A stretch of DNA of 64,000 bases from NCBI GenBank assembly GCA_031292145.1, contig JARLHR010000090.1, positions 1 to 64,000 of the forward strand, given 5' to 3'. The DNA is from Clostridium sp. (GTDB lineage: Bacteria > Bacillota > Clostridia > Clostridiales > Clostridiaceae). The notes beneath the pieces were generated by a model, which saw only the letters and a program-made list of their open reading frames with translations, was not told where the DNA came from and ran no database searches. Of this stretch, positions 3,599-14,396 are shown one piece after another. How positions within the stretch are numbered: the first letter of the stretch is position 1; each line of letters starts with the position of its first letter. A program made the position numbers and the translations under genes.

Positions 3599-4327
3599 TC
3601 ATAAACAAGAAATTCTGCCACTAATTATATTCAAAGACCTTTTAGCCTCTTGTCTTATAGTTAATTTATTATCATTCTCTTCTATATTCATTAAAATATC
3701 TAAAACCACCTTATTATCAAAACTTTCAAAAGCCCTTACAATTTTCCACCTAACAATATCATCATCAATATACTGATTAAAACATAATATCAAATCCTCT
3801 AAAATACTTTTTCCATAGCAATTTTGATTATAAAAACAAATAAAACCTATTGCATCTATTGCTTCTCTAATCGCAATAATATTGTTTGTTTTTAATACAA
3901 CCATTAGCTCAGACAATACCTCAACACTCATATGCGCCAACGTTCTTGCAATTATATCTCTTGGAAGAGGATAACTTTTCTTATTGAATTCCTTGTTAGG
4001 CAATTCAGTATATTGATTGTTGCCTATAACGCCTAAATAGTTCACCATAATTTTAGCTGATTCTATAGAAGCCTTTGATAAAGCATTGCATAATTCAATT
4101 TTTGCATAAAGTTTCTTTTCATGTAAAAGCATATTACAAAATAAATTTATCATCTCATTATTAAGCTCACCTTCATTTGATAATAAATTTATTCCAATGG
4201 TTCTTTTATAAGCTTCTTTTGATTTTAGTAATTCTAATAATTCATTTTTACTGAAATGAGCATAATCATTCGTATCTTTTACATTTATATATCCACGACT
4301 TTTTAATTGTTCATTAGAACTTTTCAT
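3599..4327 (-). CDS. HEAT-repeat-like protein of unknown function
   Basis: 242 aa from ATG 4327; a GTG 9 nt earlier overlaps the ribosome site AAGGGTG and is less likely. No signal peptide or membrane segment. The sequence is all alpha-helical with helix pairs of about 30-40 residues resembling HEAT/PBS-lyase repeats (for example around residues 80-115, 140-165 and 190-235). Such proteins are usually scaffolds. It sits just downstream of the retron operon, with the retron terminator between them, so co-transcription is not implied. Function not recognised. Confidence 0.75.
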   Translation of the reverse strand: MKSSNEQLKSRGYINVKDTNDYAHFSKNELLELLKSKEAYKRTIGINLLSNEGELNNEMINLFCNMLLHEKKLYAKIELCNALSKASIESAKIMVNYLGVIGNNQYTELPNKEFNKKSYPLPRDIIARTLAHMSVEVLSELMVVLKTNNIIAIREAIDAIGFICFYNQNCYGKSILEDLILCFNQYIDDDIVRWKIVRAFESFDNKVVLDILMNIEENDNKLTIRQEAKRSLNIISGRISCL

Positions 4328-4605
4328 ATAAATCACCCTTAAATAAACCTTCTGTTATTCCATAATAAAACTCTCTAAACCCTGATGTTTCCTATAAATA
4401 TTTACATATTTTTATAGGTATATATGAAAATATGTAAATGTAAAAGTATTTTTCTTTAAATCTATGAACCTATGAAAATAGATTTATATAAACATTTTAA
4501 ACTACTTTTCTTTTTAACTATAAATATTTTTTCATACTTATCTATTAATTTCATGTATTAAGGCTTATATAATACAAATAAATACTTGTAAATATCTCAA
4601 TAAAA

Positions 4606-4642
4606 AAAGATTATCTTTTCTATAAAACAAAAGATAATCTTT
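4606..4642 (-). terminator. Terminator of the retron operon
   Basis: Perfect 14-bp arms AAAGATTATCTTTT / AAAAGATAATCTTT. On the minus strand they are followed by TTTTTTTATTG. It starts 8 nt beyond the a2 segment of the candidate retron RNA. Confidence 0.85.
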
Positions 4643-4649
4643 ATAAACT

Positions 4650-4846
4650 GATAGATTTCTTGCTAACTATTCTCCTATTTGGTTGTGACACTTCAGCGTA
4701 GCACCACTACTGTCACATAACCGAAGGCTCGGTTTTTAATGTGCACAGTAGTGGTAGCGCAGCGAATTGCGCGCAACCTGATGATGTGTATCTGACAAAT
4801 CTCCACCATGGCGCAACACCATAGTATAAAGGCCAAGAAACCTATC
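4650..4846 (-). ncRNA. Candidate retron msr-msd RNA
   Basis: Lies between the RT stop codon and the operon terminator. The ends pair: minus-strand GATAGGTTTCTTG (4846-4834) with CAAGAAATCTATC (4662-4650), 13 bp with one G-U, as expected for retron a1/a2. A G follows a1 directly as possible branch nucleotide. Inside: a short msr-like hairpin ATGGTG-TTG-CGCCAT (4822-4808), and a long msd-like hairpin with arms 4703-4718 and 4739-4755 (16 bp, one bulged base) capped by AACCGA/TCGGTT (4719-4734). A GGTTG/CAACC pair (4681-4685, 4774-4778) encloses it. The segment is clearly richer in G+C than its surroundings. A 69-codon frame over it (4945-4736) shows no protein character. The downstream position is inferred from structure only. 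Confidence 0.75.
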
Positions 4847-4959
4847 TGTAAATTCAATTTTTAATTCAGTTTCAGTATACCATATTATGGAACCAAATTC
4901 AATACCTTTTAAAAAACTCTCTACAATCACTTTTTTTAATTGCAAGTATTTTTTTACTA

Positions 4960-6465
4960 CTAATCCTTTATTAAATTCATCCCAACCTCAATGATATCTG
5001 CATATCTTTTACTATTAACACTCTTAACCCAAGAAACCATCCCACTAATTTCATTTACAGTCTTGGCAGGCACCTCTTCCCCATTGTTCTTAAGCTTATT
5101 AGCATTATAAATTGCAGCTCTTAATGTTTTTATCCATTTCTTTGGAACTCCAATTTCATCATTATTTATAACAATACCTGTTATGCATTGACGATTGTTT
5201 TTTCTAAGAAAGCGTGTTTTCTTTTGATTTATGTTAAGGCCTTCTTCACTTACTATTTTTGAAACCAGCCCCATGAATCTTCCAAGATTTAAATCCTTTG
5301 ATTCTTCTATGAAGCTAAAACTCATGTCATCTGCGTATCTAGTATAAATGCAATTATATTTTGAAGCCAGTCCACTTAGTCTTTTATCTAATTTTACGCA
5401 GATAATATTTGTGATCATCGGGCTTGCCGGTGAACCTTGAGGCAGAATTCTATCTGAAGTTTTAACATATTTTATTTCCCCCCTTACTTCTATTTGCATA
5501 CGCTCACAGTAGGTACATATCATAGCAAGTAAAGAAGAAATATAACCTGAATAGCCAAAGGCTTTAAACATTCCCCTAACTCTTTCAAAAGTAATTGTTG
5601 GGAAGAAGTCTTCAAGATCCATGTTGATTAACAACGCTGTATTTTCTCCATAAGGTTTATCTGCCATATGAGCCTTTGCCCCTGAAACAACTGATTTCCC
5701 ATGTAAAAAGCCGTGAGCATAATCTGATACTGGAACCTTTGATAAAATCCCCTCTAAAATTTTTCTTTGGGCATTTTTAAGTACTGATTTTGGTGCTGCA
5801 ATATTACGCTCCCCACCTTTTTTCTTAGGAATACTATATCTATGATAATGATCTACGGAAACTACATCTCTATGGTAAACTAAAAATCTTAACTTTTTGT
5901 ACTCAATCTCTAAAAATTCAGCTAAAGCTTTGTCATCTTTTATAATAGGCAAACCTTGTGCTGACAATTTATCTTCATTATTTTCCTTATCAAATAATAA
6001 ACCAGAATAACCTTTTCCTATAAAAACAATCCTATCAGCCTTTTCTTTTTGCCAAGCTTCAGTCTTTTGGATTTTTTCAAGGGCTCTTTTCTCTTTTATC
6101 TCTTTACGTCTTGCAATAGATTCTTCCATAATCGTTTTAGCTACATCAAGCCTTATTTTTTCATAATCCCAGGTTTCATCGTATTTTTTCTTAAGTTCAC
6201 GAAGCTTTTGATTTATTTTATCTTTTTCATCATATAAATCAGAAATGTCTTTAATTATTTTTTCGTAGTCCTTTATTAGAGCTTTTCTTTCTGCATATTC
6301 CTCTTTTGTTTCATTTTCCTGCCTTTCATAAGGCGTAGGTAAATTCTTTGGCCAAAATCCATATTCCTGCATTTTAATTAAGGTAAATTCTTTTTTACCC
6401 AGTTCATTTACTTGTTCTCTATAATCTTGTCTCTTATTTTTTGTATTATCTTGATTCTCAATCAT
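4960..6465 (-). CDS. Retron reverse transcriptase
   Basis: 501-aa RT that would copy the msd RNA into msDNA. Residues about 45-145 are charged and coiled-coil-like. The RT core follows: SIPKKKGGERNI (211-222), AHGF (250-253), motif A INMDLEDFFPTIT (Asp283), motif B LPQGSPASPM (341-350), catalytic YADD (377-380), and CITG (427-430), which corresponds to the VTG motif of retron RTs. It overlaps the upstream SWIM gene by 4 nt (ATGA). Retrons are tripartite anti-phage systems; the ARM + SWIM + RT set matches what I recall as retron type XIII. It is longer at the N-terminus than compact retron RTs of about 300-350 aa. Confidence 0.93.
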   Translation of the reverse strand: MIENQDNTKNKRQDYREQVNELGKKEFTLIKMQEYGFWPKNLPTPYERQENETKEEYAERKALIKDYEKIIKDISDLYDEKDKINQKLRELKKKYDETWDYEKIRLDVAKTIMEESIARRKEIKEKRALEKIQKTEAWQKEKADRIVFIGKGYSGLLFDKENNEDKLSAQGLPIIKDDKALAEFLEIEYKKLRFLVYHRDVVSVDHYHRYSIPKKKGGERNIAAPKSVLKNAQRKILEGILSKVPVSDYAHGFLHGKSVVSGAKAHMADKPYGENTALLINMDLEDFFPTITFERVRGMFKAFGYSGYISSLLAMICTYCERMQIEVRGEIKYVKTSDRILPQGSPASPMITNIICVKLDKRLSGLASKYNCIYTRYADDMSFSFIEESKDLNLGRFMGLVSKIVSEEGLNINQKKTRFLRKNNRQCITGIVINNDEIGVPKKWIKTLRAAIYNANKLKNNGEEVPAKTVNEISGMVSWVKSVNSKRYADIIEVGMNLIKD

Positions 6466-8270
6466 AATATTGTCTCCATAATATCATTTATTTTATATTC
6501 TCTTCCTACTTCTAGTTTTAATCTTGTAAACTTTGAAGAAATCAAGTATAAAGCAAGAATATGTGCACAAGGTGCTGAAATATTTCTAGGCCCCTTATTA
6601 AACTCTCTGCATTTACATTTCACTTTAGAAATCTGGCCATCTTCATCTATCATTAATTCTGTTTCTGTTAAATCATGTTCTCTATTATAATCCTCTGTTC
6701 CGCGAAACTTCCAATTCTTATATTTACTATTTGGCATTTTAAAGGAATGTTTAAAAATAAATTCATTATTGCTTGTCACACTTGCAGAGAAGTTGTCCAT
6801 ACTTTCCTTAATATGTTCTTTAACTTTATATTCCATTTCAGTTGTTTCATATAATTCCTTTGGAATAGGTGTATTACATAATCTTCTAAACCTTACTGTA
6901 TCATTTATTGGATCAAAATAACCTTCCCCACATTTTAATAGCATACCTATACCTGCTTTATTTGAAGACTTTGAATCTTCCCTTAAATTCTCATAAATAT
7001 TTTCCATTGATAAACAGCGTTTTTCTTTCATTAATTTATAAACTTTATCGTAGCTTCCATCTCCAATAAATCCGCCTAAGATATTAAAGGCAGTTCCTTT
7101 AACCCAGTCATTAGAAGACCATGAGGAAAAACCAATAGTCATTTTCATTGTTCCCATATCTGCTATAATAAATTGAGGCATTCCAAAACCAAGTAATCTC
7201 ACTTTAAAAGACTTAGCTAAAGGAATTAGTTTTTCTGCAACCAGCCAGCGCCTTCTGCCCCATATTTTCTCTTCTCTATATTTTTCACCGTTATATACTG
7301 CCTTTAAGGTAAGTTCACTACCAAAGGGTTCAAATACTATTTTTACTGGTTTTTTAGGCTCTAATACCCACTTCATATATCTTGGACCTTTTTGCTCCTT
7401 GTGCCTTCTTAAGAATGAACATATATCATAAATATCTACAGGCGATAATTCTATATCTATCCCACCTAGACTTGCTGCTGAAGAAACTTGATTAAAGCCC
7501 TTAATCCAAGTTTCAGGCAGGTCTATTTTCTTTTCCATATGTTCTGGAATTATTCCTGTATCTACTGTAAAACCTCCCGGATTAACAGATAATTTTACAT
7601 CATTGTAAGTACGAAATCTTTCAATTTCCTTTGCTAGTTTAGCTGAAAAATCTATATTAGTTGTACCTAACTTAGGCTCTTGAAGCAGCTCAAATTCTTC
7701 CATATCAATTGATAAACAGCCATAAGTAGATTCATCTAATGAAAAGGCTTCAAAGGAAACTTGATCTGGATGTACCGTTATTACTGGATCTAACACAAAC
7801 CAAAGGTCTAAATCTCTATCTTTTATAAATTTCCAAAATTCTCTCTCAAGCTTATAATAATCCTTCCATACATCGTGTTTATCAATTTCTTTCTTAATAT
7901 TATTTTTAACATCAATAAGCTTAGATATATCTGAATTGTTTTCATCTAATTTACTTAGTAATTCATTCATATCCTTACTTAAATTTTCTCTAACCTCAGG
8001 CAGATATTGCTCATGCTCTAAAATTCGTCTTTCAATTTCACCATCAAGCCATTCAAAAAACTCTACTCTTTCCTTTTTCTTTACACTCATATCTGAAACA
8101 ACAATTTCACGAAGCATAAGCATTGCATCTCTAAAAATAAGAGGGTGGTTTAATTTTCCTAAAAAAGATACTTGTTCGTCTCTAGAAAGATCAGGACTAA
8201 GTCCTAAAACTGTATCCTCTCCTTCATTAATACACATGGACGGACTTGCATATTTATAATTAACCTTCAA
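6462..8270 (-). CDS. SWIM zinc-finger retron accessory protein (WHSWIM-like)
   Basis: 602-aa soluble protein, likely a retron partner or effector. The C-terminus carries a SWIM zinc ligand set C552-x-C554-x13-C568-x-H570, a nucleic-acid or protein-binding finger. Residues about 90-130 look coiled-coil. The middle contains the segment WIKGFNQVSSAASLGG and many aromatic/basic strands but no catalytic motif I recognise. Start ATG 8270 overlaps the end of the ARM gene by 11 nt and the RT start overlaps its stop, so the three genes form one tightly coupled unit. Confidence 0.85.
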   Translation of the reverse strand: MKVNYKYASPSMCINEGEDTVLGLSPDLSRDEQVSFLGKLNHPLIFRDAMLMLREIVVSDMSVKKKERVEFFEWLDGEIERRILEHEQYLPEVRENLSKDMNELLSKLDENNSDISKLIDVKNNIKKEIDKHDVWKDYYKLEREFWKFIKDRDLDLWFVLDPVITVHPDQVSFEAFSLDESTYGCLSIDMEEFELLQEPKLGTTNIDFSAKLAKEIERFRTYNDVKLSVNPGGFTVDTGIIPEHMEKKIDLPETWIKGFNQVSSAASLGGIDIELSPVDIYDICSFLRRHKEQKGPRYMKWVLEPKKPVKIVFEPFGSELTLKAVYNGEKYREEKIWGRRRWLVAEKLIPLAKSFKVRLLGFGMPQFIIADMGTMKMTIGFSSWSSNDWVKGTAFNILGGFIGDGSYDKVYKLMKEKRCLSMENIYENLREDSKSSNKAGIGMLLKCGEGYFDPINDTVRFRRLCNTPIPKELYETTEMEYKVKEHIKESMDNFSASVTSNNEFIFKHSFKMPNSKYKNWKFRGTEDYNREHDLTETELMIDEDGQISKVKCKCREFNKGPRNISAPCAHILALYLISSKFTRLKLEVGREYKINDIMETIL

Positions 8271-11200
8271 TTAGTGCACTCTCCTTTCTTATCTTAACTA
8301 ATGTAGTAAGTGCTCTTTCTGAATCCACAATTATATTTGAACCTCCAATATCAAGCAGCATATTTTCAATTTCCTCTAACTTATCCTTATGCTTTAGTGC
8401 AAACTTAGGAATAATCTCATAAAGATTATCTTTACCTTTAGACACTTTATTGGGAAGGAACAATAAAGTCTTTATATAATACATGAAAAGTTCCTTATCA
8501 CCATTGCCTAAATTATTGATTATATCACCTGTCTTATTAGAAATATAAGCTTTGACCTCGCTGGATGTATGCTCTAACATTTGTTCTATAAATTCTTTAG
8601 GAATTAAATCCTTATATATTTCATCTAATTTTTTAAGTCCAAAAGAGTAAACTTTTTTTACAGGGGAATCAATTATAATTCCATGTAGTTTTCTTCTCTT
8701 TTCTTCAATAATATTACAAAAAATCTCTTCTGCTCTTTTATTAAGCATAGTTATATCTGATTCAAACATAATTAATAAAGTTGAAAATCTTGTGCTTAGC
8801 TCTTCAGTATTTTCCATAATAGCTCCAAATAATATATTTATCATTTTAGAAGAACCTGTTTCTAATATTCCTATGATTGCAGAATCCGGTGGAAGCTTCT
8901 TACTTTGAATTGCTTCTAATATGCAAATAATTTGTCTGCTTCTTTGTGAAATACCTGTATTTTTTGTTTCTATAGTAATTTTCTTAAGCAAAATATCTAA
9001 ATCTTCATAGGAAATTGAGAAAATCACCTCTTCTATAAATTCCTCTACCCAGGCTGGCATTTCTCCTCTGCTAAATACTTCTGATACCATACCTGAAATT
9101 AAATCTACTTTCTGATCTTCTGAAAAATCTTTAACTTTATTTGTAGATCCTAAAAGTAACTCTTTAATTTCCTCGGAAATATTAACTTTTTCACTTATAA
9201 ATTTATCACTGCTATTAATAATCTTTTTTACAAAATTACAATACTCAGTGTTATCTAAAGAAGATATACTTTCCTTAAACAAACTTGCCCACACATCGAT
9301 GTTCTCTAATAACATCAACTCTGCTATCTTGTCTTCTGAAAATGCGCCTCCCGTTCTATTAAAGAAATCTCTAGCTATATCACGAATTTCTTCGTTAGTA
9401 CTTTCCATTAAGGAAATCATTATTTCAACATTAAAGTCATTAACATCCTTTAATTTATTAGAAAGCTGTTCTTTAAACATATCTACAAGAGGTTTATAAG
9501 CACCTTCCGTTAAAGAAACTAGTTCCTTGTAAGACATTTTCTCAATTAAATCCTTAGTCTTTTCAGATTCCTTTAAAATGTAATAACAGGCTTTTAACAC
9601 TGGATTTATTTTTGCTTTGTCTGCAATATCTAATACATCCTGCAAATGATTATCCCAAATTTCTTTCATAAATTCATAGCGTCCTTGAAGTTTCATTAAT
9701 TGATCATTTGCCATCCAATTGCTTCTAGCCTGCCAATTATCCCAGCCAACAGGAGGTTTTTCCTTAAAATCATGGTATAAATAATACTTTAAAAACTCAT
9801 TAAATTGAAAGTTTCCACGGAATTTACACACATAATCATGCTCTGTATAGCTTGTTAAAAGCGCTTTTATAGCTTCTATAAACTTCTCCGGATCATTTTT
9901 GCTATAAAAATTTAAAATCCTTTGTGCATACCTTTTGTAATATTTTAATTCCTTAGTCTTTTCATTGCCTCTAAAGTAATAATTTAATCTTGGAGCATCT
10001 AAATAATAAGCTATTTTTCCAACAACACTAGCTAGTCCATATGTTTCTGCTTCCTGCAGAGTATTTTTAAGTTCCAGGCTTTTTAATACTACCCCATCAC
10101 TGTAAAGGCTTACTTTATAACGTTGAGAGCTTCTATACTCCACCCATTTACGCTGACTATAATCATATCTTCCTTGATATTCTCTAAGCATTCCTTGTAC
10201 AGCATATTTCCTATAAGCAGAACCCTCAAGTATTTTACCTTCTGGGATTTCCTCATCACCAATTCTAATAAGATGCAAATCCATATCTGGTAGAGAAGCT
10301 TTTATTAATTTTTCCCTTTCAGCTTTTAATTCTTCATCAAAAACTGTAGTGTATATCTTTGCACATCTTTTTACACCTTTTATATAACTTTCTTCAACCC
10401 ACTTTATGTCACTGTTTAAAATAGTTTTTGCATCTTCAATTAGTAAGTCATTATTTCTTTTTGCAAACTCTAAAAATAAACCACTTATTAATTCAGAGCT
10501 TCCTATTTTTAAAAGCATCTCATAAATATCCTTTGAAGGCTTCATTTCAATTAATTCATTTAATGCTTTCTTCCTCATATAAAGATTTTGATCACTTAAT
10601 AAGGTATACATAACTTCATAATACTTGCAAGAATCACCATTCAATTTCAAAATATTATTGGGATGTTTAACTAATTTAAAATCAACAAAATTAATATTCT
10701 TTTCTTCTATTATCTTTACATAATCCTCATAAGAATTTGATTTAAAATACGGAAGTACAATTTGCTCTTCACCAGTTAAATTTTTAAATTCCTTAACCCT
10801 ATAATTTTCATCCTTGCTCCAATAATTTTTTATCCCCGTTTTATAATACATTTTTGGCATATTATCCGCTTTGTCTTTATTGTAATATGAATTTCCCTCT
10901 ATGATTTTTACACTTTGAAAAGCTGGCAAATGCCCTTCTTTTCCTTTAAATACAGCATAACTAGTATATTTAACACTATCTTCAAGAATATTATTAATAG
11001 TTTGTCCATTATCTTCGGTACTTGCAAATTCTTGTTCACCATAAAGAATAAGAAGACTAGGATTATTATTTTCATCATATCCCCATAAAACCACATTTCT
11101 ATAAGGATTATATTCCTTTTTCCATACCCTCTTTTTTGCCTTTGTTCTTTCAACTAAGATGCTTTTCTCAGGTTTGTTTTCACTTATCTGTACTCCTTCA

Positions 11201-11271
11201 ACTTTTTCATCCTTAGATTTCAATAAAGAGAAAATTGATTTAAAAAAGCTATTATCTTTAAAACTTGACAT
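8260..11271 (-). CDS. Large ARM/HEAT-repeat-like retron accessory protein
   Basis: 1003-aa soluble protein, first gene of the retron operon. The N-terminus (about 1-60) is basic and low-complexity. Residues about 60-200 form a beta-rich region, then long stretches of paired helices (about 220-340 and 500-990) resemble armadillo/HEAT repeats. A segment near 365-385 (REYQGRYDYSQRKWVEYR) is unusually aromatic. No nuclease or ATPase motif seen. The ribosome site GAAGGTGG precedes ATG 11271. Its size and gene order fit the ARM component of type XIII retrons; role by association. Confidence 0.82.
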   Translation of the reverse strand: MSSFKDNSFFKSIFSLLKSKDEKVEGVQISENKPEKSILVERTKAKKRVWKKEYNPYRNVVLWGYDENNNPSLLILYGEQEFASTEDNGQTINNILEDSVKYTSYAVFKGKEGHLPAFQSVKIIEGNSYYNKDKADNMPKMYYKTGIKNYWSKDENYRVKEFKNLTGEEQIVLPYFKSNSYEDYVKIIEEKNINFVDFKLVKHPNNILKLNGDSCKYYEVMYTLLSDQNLYMRKKALNELIEMKPSKDIYEMLLKIGSSELISGLFLEFAKRNNDLLIEDAKTILNSDIKWVEESYIKGVKRCAKIYTTVFDEELKAEREKLIKASLPDMDLHLIRIGDEEIPEGKILEGSAYRKYAVQGMLREYQGRYDYSQRKWVEYRSSQRYKVSLYSDGVVLKSLELKNTLQEAETYGLASVVGKIAYYLDAPRLNYYFRGNEKTKELKYYKRYAQRILNFYSKNDPEKFIEAIKALLTSYTEHDYVCKFRGNFQFNEFLKYYLYHDFKEKPPVGWDNWQARSNWMANDQLMKLQGRYEFMKEIWDNHLQDVLDIADKAKINPVLKACYYILKESEKTKDLIEKMSYKELVSLTEGAYKPLVDMFKEQLSNKLKDVNDFNVEIMISLMESTNEEIRDIARDFFNRTGGAFSEDKIAELMLLENIDVWASLFKESISSLDNTEYCNFVKKIINSSDKFISEKVNISEEIKELLLGSTNKVKDFSEDQKVDLISGMVSEVFSRGEMPAWVEEFIEEVIFSISYEDLDILLKKITIETKNTGISQRSRQIICILEAIQSKKLPPDSAIIGILETGSSKMINILFGAIMENTEELSTRFSTLLIMFESDITMLNKRAEEIFCNIIEEKRRKLHGIIIDSPVKKVYSFGLKKLDEIYKDLIPKEFIEQMLEHTSSEVKAYISNKTGDIINNLGNGDKELFMYYIKTLLFLPNKVSKGKDNLYEIIPKFALKHKDKLEEIENMLLDIGGSNIIVDSERALTTLVKIRKESALIEG

Positions 11272-14189: not shown

Positions 14190-14280
14190 TATTTTTGGCA
14201 ACCTGGCAATCATGGAAAATACATTTCTTTAGACCCATAGCTTTGTGACCTTACCTTTCGGTAAGTGTACTATTATCATT
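14190..14280 (-). ncRNA. Cyclic-di-GMP-I (GEMM) riboswitch aptamer
   Basis: The minus strand shows a TTACC-GAAA-GGTAA hairpin (GNRA tetraloop), then the conserved segment CACAAAGCTATGGGTCTAAA, a variable arm, and ATTGCCAGGTTGCC, which is the tetraloop-receptor arm of GEMM-I RNAs. It is followed by a terminator and the KAS III-like/transducer operon. Ligand assignment rests on family resemblance; a few GEMM variants bind cGAMP instead. Confidence 0.88.
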
Positions 14281-14396
14281 TTATATGTTATATATAATAT
14301 TACTTGTATTTTTTACAATTTTCAATAGCAATCCCAATATTTTTACAATTAATTTAATTTGATACAAATTCACATAGCTAATTCAAGTTTCTTTTT

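Follow-up and report, generated by a model that had tools for sequence, protein, structure and literature searches.

The window, that is, the whole stretch of DNA analysed here, spans 64,000 nucleotides (nt) of Clostridium sp. (contig JARLHR010000090.1 of assembly GCA_031292145.1, positions 1-64,000). On its minus strand it carries an operon of three genes that includes a retron-type reverse transcriptase (RT), followed by a structured noncoding RNA (ncRNA) built like a retron msr-msd transcript. From the RT, the RNA anatomy and the gene content, the locus looks like a complete type XIII retron. Comparison with relatives makes it very probable that it belongs to a clostridial/Asgard branch of this type whose msr-msd RNA became a separate gene. 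The features are listed below, with msDNA standing for multicopy single-stranded DNA; covariance model R1 and alignment A2 are described further on.

8260..11271, minus strand: ARM/HEAT-like, WGR-type protein, 1003 amino acids (aa), presumed effector; PADLOC WGR_XIII and HEAT-ARM_XIII; homologue in the same order in relatives
6462..8270, minus strand: SWIM-finger protein, 602 aa; PADLOC SWIM_XIII E 6e-182, Pfam SWIM E 0.007 (below cut-off)
4960..6465, minus strand: retron reverse transcriptase, 501 aa; PADLOC RT_XIII E 5e-161, Pfam RVT_1 E 1e-23; motifs YADD, QGSP, AHGF...AKAH, ITG
4874..4902, minus strand: promoter-like site of the ncRNA, TTGAAT-17 nt-TATACT, with TG before the -10; layout conserved in the scan of relatives
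4650..4846, minus strand: ncRNA, msr-msd-like, 197 nt from a1 to a2; R1 match 4639-4853, E 2e-53 (the window copy is part of the R1 seed); covariation
4834..4846, minus strand: a1 arm, helix 1 of A2
4833, minus strand: candidate priming guanosine, first base 3' of a1, proposed from its position
4805..4825, minus strand: msr hairpin SL1, helix 2 of A2, 99.8% of cells paired
4664..4790, minus strand: msd, predicted msDNA template of about 127 nt; limits transferred through the alignment from msd-only fragments of archaeal bins G396 and G078
4701..4757, minus strand: fast-diversifying msd stem and loop, helix 6, 15 of 15 pairs changed on both sides; mean stem identity within arrays 0.33
4650..4662, minus strand: a2 arm, helix 1 of A2
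about 4602..4642, minus strand: terminator-like hairpin and T run, by eye; similar features, again by eye, behind the copies of several relatives

The operon and its assignment to type XIII

Each gene overlaps the next (11271-8260, 8270-6462 and 6465-4960), SWIM and RT by 4 nt, in the head-to-tail arrangement that the first-pass annotation of this DNA had described. The same annotation had likened the gene content to retron type XIII, and PADLOC models for the RT, the SWIM protein and parts of the effector support this. The window RT and SWIM proteins cover the RT_XIII and SWIM_XIII profiles mostly end to end, while the ARM-like protein is recognised weakly as an effector by WGR_XIII (E 1e-17, partial profile) and HEAT-ARM_XIII (E 2e-5); the gene order is that of the relatives. 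YADD, QGSP, AHGFLHGKSVVSGAKAH and ITG are all present in the RT, and we take the latter two to be counterparts of the retron NAxxH and VTG motifs. Type XIII is reportedly one of the types distinguished by Mestre et al. 2020, and PMC11953036 notes a PADLOC 'retron type XIII' in Variovorax.

Some variation was seen around these proteins. The ARM-type effectors of two Lokiarchaeal loci (L012 3209-8245 and L017 4053-8243) begin with long N-terminal leucine-rich repeats, of which Pfam shows none in the window protein. Elsewhere the RT continues in one open frame into an extra C-terminal domain, TerD (E 2e-30) at L014 10001-12085 and BRCT (E 1e-6) at L108 9129-11378. In the window's own genome, a PRTase-CE gene is followed by a second RT at L081 (contig C162, 23-2424; 343 aa, 38% identity, RVT_1). 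This is probably another retron type, and L081 lacks the R1 RNA.

Structure, placement and expression of the RNA

Relatives were collected by an RT search of a bacterial and archaeal genome set, in which the best 80 of 452 stretches encoding a relative gave 78 distinct loci. R1 was built from 21 RNA copies, namely 20 from 19 of these loci plus the window copy. With an E-value of at most 1e-14, R1 detected 60 copies in the 78 loci plus the window; 39 of these had no part in building the model, and two weaker matches (E 0.003 and 0.03) were left out of the copy set. In alignment A2, which holds these 60 rows fitted to the R1 structure, 96.2% of cells are paired and 40 of 51 pairs show changes on both sides. 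Double changes occur in 617 cells, against 160 (standard deviation 11) after shuffling and 68-112 with partners slid by 1-3 columns. The first-pass annotation had proposed a 13-bp pairing of the RNA ends (4834-4846 with 4650-4662), and this corresponds to consensus helix 1, in which 97.0% of cells are paired across 59 distinct sequences and 12 of 13 pairs have changed on both sides. The short and the long hairpin it had seen between the paired ends, the latter at about 4780-4681 (minus strand), are kept in relatives as well, and helix 6 in the msd pairs in 96.8% of cells, again with double changes. A covariance-model search at related loci had been set beforehand as a check, and it returned the a1/a2 pairing and the hairpins downstream of the RT in relatives. 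As far as comparative sequence data can tell, the RNA is a conserved, msr-msd-like structure with two hairpins and a1/a2 pairing.

The predicted folding energy of the 201-nt RNA is -75.6 kcal/mol (z = -5.6), which none of 200 shuffles reached. The base after a1 is G in all 60 copies, in the context GGC in 25 of 28 downstream-type and GGU in 31 of 32 divergent-type copies. Rfam 15, at gathering and relaxed thresholds, contains no family for the RNA; its one sub-threshold match, to a miRNA model, falls on the terminator. A terminator behind the RNA had been annotated before, and a hairpin with a T run is visible by eye at about 4642-4602, although the pattern scan did not list it. Coding by the RNA segment was rejected, as 6 of 360 frames (six frames in 60 copies) are stop-free; a listed 69-aa open reading frame at 4736-4945 overlaps the RNA and is not taken for a gene. 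In L016 (11540-11763), two extra small hairpins are apparently inserted right before the RNA's a2 (by eye).

The 78 loci divide into 56 of the window's branch (L001-L054, L056 and L060, two of them Lokiarchaeal bins) and 22 from other phyla, whose RT identity is 34-38%. Within the window's branch, 24 loci have the RNA 3' of the RT in the same orientation, mostly at most 300 nt away, with longer distances of about 0.8 kb in L045, 1.4 kb in L004, 2.5 kb in L051 and 3.2 kb in L017. In another 22 it precedes the ARM gene and is divergently oriented, and the remaining 10 yielded no RNA within the locus. Six of these ten genomes were searched as a whole. For L018, L029 and L050, each with one RT match (E <= 1e-40), the only RNA copies found are on other contigs, while the genomes of L020, L021 and L033 gave no copy. 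On L093 and L095, two of the contigs with these unlinked copies, kilobases of other genes flank the RNA on either side; L094 stops 320 nt past its second copy.

Each of the 22 loci from other phyla has, immediately before the RT, a match to another RNA of similar architecture; the match is weak or partial in L062, L075 and L078. The profile of this RNA was built from 17 loci, and L059 and L061 are strong independent matches. In 17 of the 22 this RNA sits between SWIM and RT. This is the type XIII placement among non-clostridial members, and the window differs from it, since its SWIM gene runs into the RT gene and its RNA comes after the RT, outside the operon and with a promoter-like site of its own; we do not count this as a bar to type XIII membership. 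A further RNA model, R2, has little power to detect the non-clostridial RNAs (E 0.006 for L072, and two matches in L078, at E 0.3 and 3.2, that are not RNA-like), and the non-clostridial profile finds no clostridial RNA at E <= 1. As the models hardly detect each other's RNAs, homology between the two groups rests on place, layout and short shared motifs.

The RNA positions follow the RT tree. This tree has 77 rows, among which all 22 non-clostridial rows had been labelled 'between' in advance, 17 having an upstream SWIM gene. The 22 form one clade and the window's branch (55 rows) a second, each at 100/100. All divergent rows fall into one nested clade (100/99, 29 rows), together with three unlinked and four RNA-less rows. 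The tree is midpoint-rooted, so that it shows no direction of change in RNA position, and the tree tool flagged the long branch between the two main clades, and hence the root, as possibly unsafe. A conserved RNA upstream of the ARM gene, named by the first-pass annotation as a finding that would speak against a downstream template, does exist; it is not an alternative to the downstream RNA, but the same RNA moved, on the opposite strand and in a nested other clade. Carriage by phages or plasmids was considered and dropped, for 50,697 phage and 72,556 plasmid records gave no RNA match (E <= 0.01); at E <= 1e-50 the RT had a single match among the plasmids (Methylobacterium, 32%) and none among the phages. 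The 47 RT relatives in viral_contigs have no more than 35% identity. At G021 (contig C63, 40925-42493) the RT match is split into two parts that overlap in the query, as in an interrupted gene, and the RNA is intact.

The RNA appears to have its own promoter. The best sigma-A-type site precedes a1 by 21-32 nt in 17 of the 24 downstream-type loci, with a TTGA -35 in 16 of the 17 and a spacer of nearly always 17 nt. All 22 divergent loci have a TTGAC(A/T)-16-TATAAT-like site 8-20 nt before a1 of the first copy. A looser promoter scan of the window stretch gave five sites versus 2.8 expected. Among 68 genomes of the genus, 15 have the RNA (E <= 0.001), 10 the RT (E <= 1e-100) and 53 neither; all 10 RT-bearing genomes have the RNA, in G032 on a different contig from the RT (Fisher p 1e-8 for co-occurrence, uncorrected for kinship). 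The five genomes with the RNA alone hold remnants. L085 and L086 keep a complete RNA and promoter-like site next to an 83-aa piece of the SWIM gene, whereas L082, L083 and L084 are decayed, with SWIM pieces in L082. Four of the five remnants lie near a GNAT gene (67-77% identity) that is also near the window operon (14961-14524), and the retron was thus probably lost from the same genomic site.

The first-pass annotation had placed the template RNA at the 3' end of the operon mRNA. An RNA excised from that end, next to a promoter-like site that is not used, would agree with the 24 of 56 loci in which the RNA follows the RT in the same orientation and with the window, where no terminator is listed on the RNA strand between RT and RNA. 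It agrees poorly with the conserved layout of the promoter-like site, with the 22 divergently oriented RNAs, with the unlinked copies, and with L085 and L086, where the whole RNA and its site persist and the RT is gone. We regard such an origin as improbable. Because of its own conserved promoter-like site, and because it occurs opposite to, far from and without the operon, the RNA reads better as a separate gene, although read-through from the operon may occur as well.

Several observations nevertheless weigh against a type XIII retron with a separate RNA gene. The ARM protein fits the type XIII effector models in part only and has no Pfam family above cut-off. Behind a1 we find GGC or GGU instead of the canonical AGC; a review (PMC6868368) gives AGC or variants including CAGC, GAGC and ACGC as the context of the priming G. 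Seven of the 56 loci have no RNA, whether in the locus or in the searched genome. In five of them (L021, L027, L035, L038 and L046) contig ends cut the expected RNA side, L020 and L033 are unexplained, and for L027, L035, L038 and L046 the genome was not searched. Placement on another contig could possibly be a binning fault, since several rows are metagenome bins. Seven of the 24 downstream loci deviate from the promoter layout (L012, L016, L017, L034, L045, L052 and L053), L012 and L017 being archaeal bins, and the promoter scan, which takes the best site per 80 nt without a shuffled control, draws its weight from the sameness of the sites.

RNA arrays and msd-only copies

More than one RNA copy was found in 6 of the 46 copy-bearing loci: six in L041, four in L060, three in L012 (one degenerate) and two each in L026, L048 and L053. 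L060 is a complete chromosome. In L041 and L060, a promoter-like site stands at the first copy only (score 13.2; 8.0-9.7 for later copies), nearly uniform spacers of 32-38 nt separate the copies, and behind the last copy stands what looks by eye like a terminator hairpin. From this arrangement, each of the two arrays is likely transcribed as one long RNA. L026 and L048 also have the site at the first copy only, L053 and L094 at each copy. In the other branch, L061, L064 and L065 contain two tandem RNA copies.

Copies within an array differ mainly in one part. Over 27 copy pairs, mean identity is 0.90 for the msr and 0.88 for the outer msd, compared with 0.33 for the msd stem, which still pairs; by array, stem identity runs from 0.23 (L026 and L060) to 0.73 (L048). 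Relatedness was controlled by binning on framework identity alone, because the stem counts in overall identity and biases such bins; the contrast persists but is smaller. At a framework identity of 0.80-0.85, stem identity is 0.31 within arrays (6 pairs) versus 0.54 for single copies between genomes (88 pairs). The corresponding values are 0.27 (13) versus 0.58 (43) at 0.85-0.90, 0.47 (6) versus 0.78 (28) at 0.90-0.95, and 0.37 (2) versus 0.78 (4) at 0.95 and over, with overlapping ranges and non-independent pairs throughout. One msd stem is 98% alike between L041 and L060, and their other stems are different.

In archaeal bins, the msd also occurs on its own. R2 gave matches in 10 of 147 relatives of the Lokiarchaeal bin G078 (the bin of L017), and a third model, R3, found 28 places in 12 genomes among 392 relatives of G396; as R3 lost the variable stem (14 pairs), it scores mostly sequence. 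Contigs L012, L097 and L118 carry PPS_PS, Ras-type GTPase and Roadblock, and TBP genes, which we take to be markers of archaea or Asgard. The 28 places comprise seven full copies (three in G072, two each in G078 and G396), seven fresh fragments and 14 older ones. The fresh fragments cover the msd alone and lie in unrelated DNA of G396 and G078. Those of G396, on six other contigs, span positions 61-181, 58-184, 59-186, 72-179, 73-176 and 77-177 of the 213-nt unit (the last truncated where its contig ends); resident copy 1 is matched by one of them at 121 of 121 positions, and copy 2 by another at 127 of 128. A further 46-nt piece of G396 is the hairpin tip only. The single G078 piece (60-175) is 97% like its full copy.

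The 14 older places lie in genomes that have no RT (E <= 1e-30) in seven of the eight searched, the eighth being G396; G359 and G528 were not searched for the RT. SWIM occurs in 4 of 12 genomes, in G367 as only a short piece. At least L109, L115, L117 and L131 seem to keep msr traces and may be decayed full copies, and most other older fragments start near CATAC and finish near GTTA. In the 68 genomes of the window's genus, R3 found no msd-only fragments, all 12 places being full-length copies. A few flanks were peculiar. Near position 2100 of L118, part of the hairpin stem seems, by eye, to recur in inverted orientation in the right flank of the msd-only fragment, as if from template switching or rearrangement. 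The old msd fragment of L119 (229-357, archaeal bin) directly adjoins a tRNA-Leu gene (139-223). By eye, old sequences derived from the RNA in different archaeal genomes match in their flanks in two pairs (L109 2661-2791 with L115 386-516, and L116 1780-1908 with L132 79-207), which could be shared old insertions or copies.

In known retrons, the complementary DNA (cDNA) starts beside a2, opposite the base behind a1. The fresh msd-only fragments look like integrated msDNA, which is their simplest reading, and they likely mark the msDNA limits. Transferred to the window, these limits would put the template at about 4790-4664, with a start at the position that known retrons use. The fragments might instead stem from DNA recombination or from capture by another element. 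The inverted stem piece in L118 and the four older copies with apparent msr traces could be read in this way. Yet all five G396 fragments with both ends readable fall inside positions 58-186, none including a1, SL1 or a2 (placement product, roughly estimated, about 4e-6), and the fragments derive from both resident copies. Recombination or capture thus seems unlikely to us. That the RNA is no reverse-transcription template at all, but another structured RNA of the system, such as a small RNA, an attenuator or an antitoxin RNA, we hold to be highly improbable. Strong structure and an own promoter would also suit a small RNA. However, the anatomy of paired ends, short hairpin and long hairpin is that of a retron, all 22 non-clostridial loci have a match to an RNA of like build immediately before the RT, and the near-identity of msd-only DNA to resident copies implies a cDNA.

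Known systems, neighbouring features and proposed mechanism

Lampson and Rice (1997) are said to have described msDNA-like chromosomal repeats in Nannocystis exedens with possible retrotransposition. Those repeats share with ours the similarity of chromosomal sequence to msDNA; the difference is that here archaeal bins that also hold a type XIII-like RT contain full copies and near-identical msd-only fragments in one genome. With a standard retron cassette, e.g., Eco1/Ec86, the window system shares the paired ends, the short msr hairpin, the long msd hairpin and the single RT. In the standard cassette, as described in the review PMC6868368, msr-msd stands ahead of the RT in one polycistronic unit, whereas the window-type RNA is behind or away from the RT and has GGC or GGU after a1. 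A literature search over titles, abstract beginnings and term counts, with the type XIII classification paper and most subscription journals outside its scope, gave nothing on type XIII RNA, retron RNA arrays or archaeal msd copies.

Two further features lie near the operon. The gene downstream of the RNA (window 3599-4336, minus strand) has a weak likeness to HEAT repeats (Pfam HEAT_2 E 8e-5, below cut-off) and no PADLOC match. A c-di-GMP-I riboswitch (window 14194-14281, minus strand; Rfam RF01051, E 3e-13) precedes the gene at 14085-13081.

Gene content, RNA fold, linkage to the RT, promoter-like sites and arrays can be read from the DNA directly, and for restraint and release of the effector we draw on retrons in general. 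The a1/a2 pairing would place guanosine 4833, just after a1, beside the end of the template just before a2. The RT might then prime at this guanosine and copy about 127 nt (4664-4790) into a hairpin msDNA that remains with the RT. By analogy, the RT-msDNA complex, probably together with SWIM and WGR parts, may hold back the activity of the ARM protein, which would be set free once a phage product damages or occupies the msDNA hairpin. To our knowledge, it is open for most retron types what their msDNA senses; here, the stem that varies between copies could be the part read by phage factors.

We may thus speculate, and offer this as a tentative idea that we judge somewhat less probable than not, that a single RT works with a set of template RNAs that can move. 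In this picture, arrays of as many as six units, in two loci with a single promoter and with near-constant msr and outer msd next to diversified stems that preserve pairing, would yield mixed msDNA hairpins, each a bait for a different phage factor; in archaea, msDNA would also enter the chromosome as msd-only copies. The natural arrays, in which the presumed RT-binding parts are constant and the msd stem is changed, are matched sets for probing the role of the stem. If they are what they seem, the integrated archaeal msd fragments form a genomic record of msDNA that would help to locate msDNA ends ahead of biochemistry. An RNA gene separated from its operon, moreover, suggests that a retron RT can act on RNAs in trans in nature.

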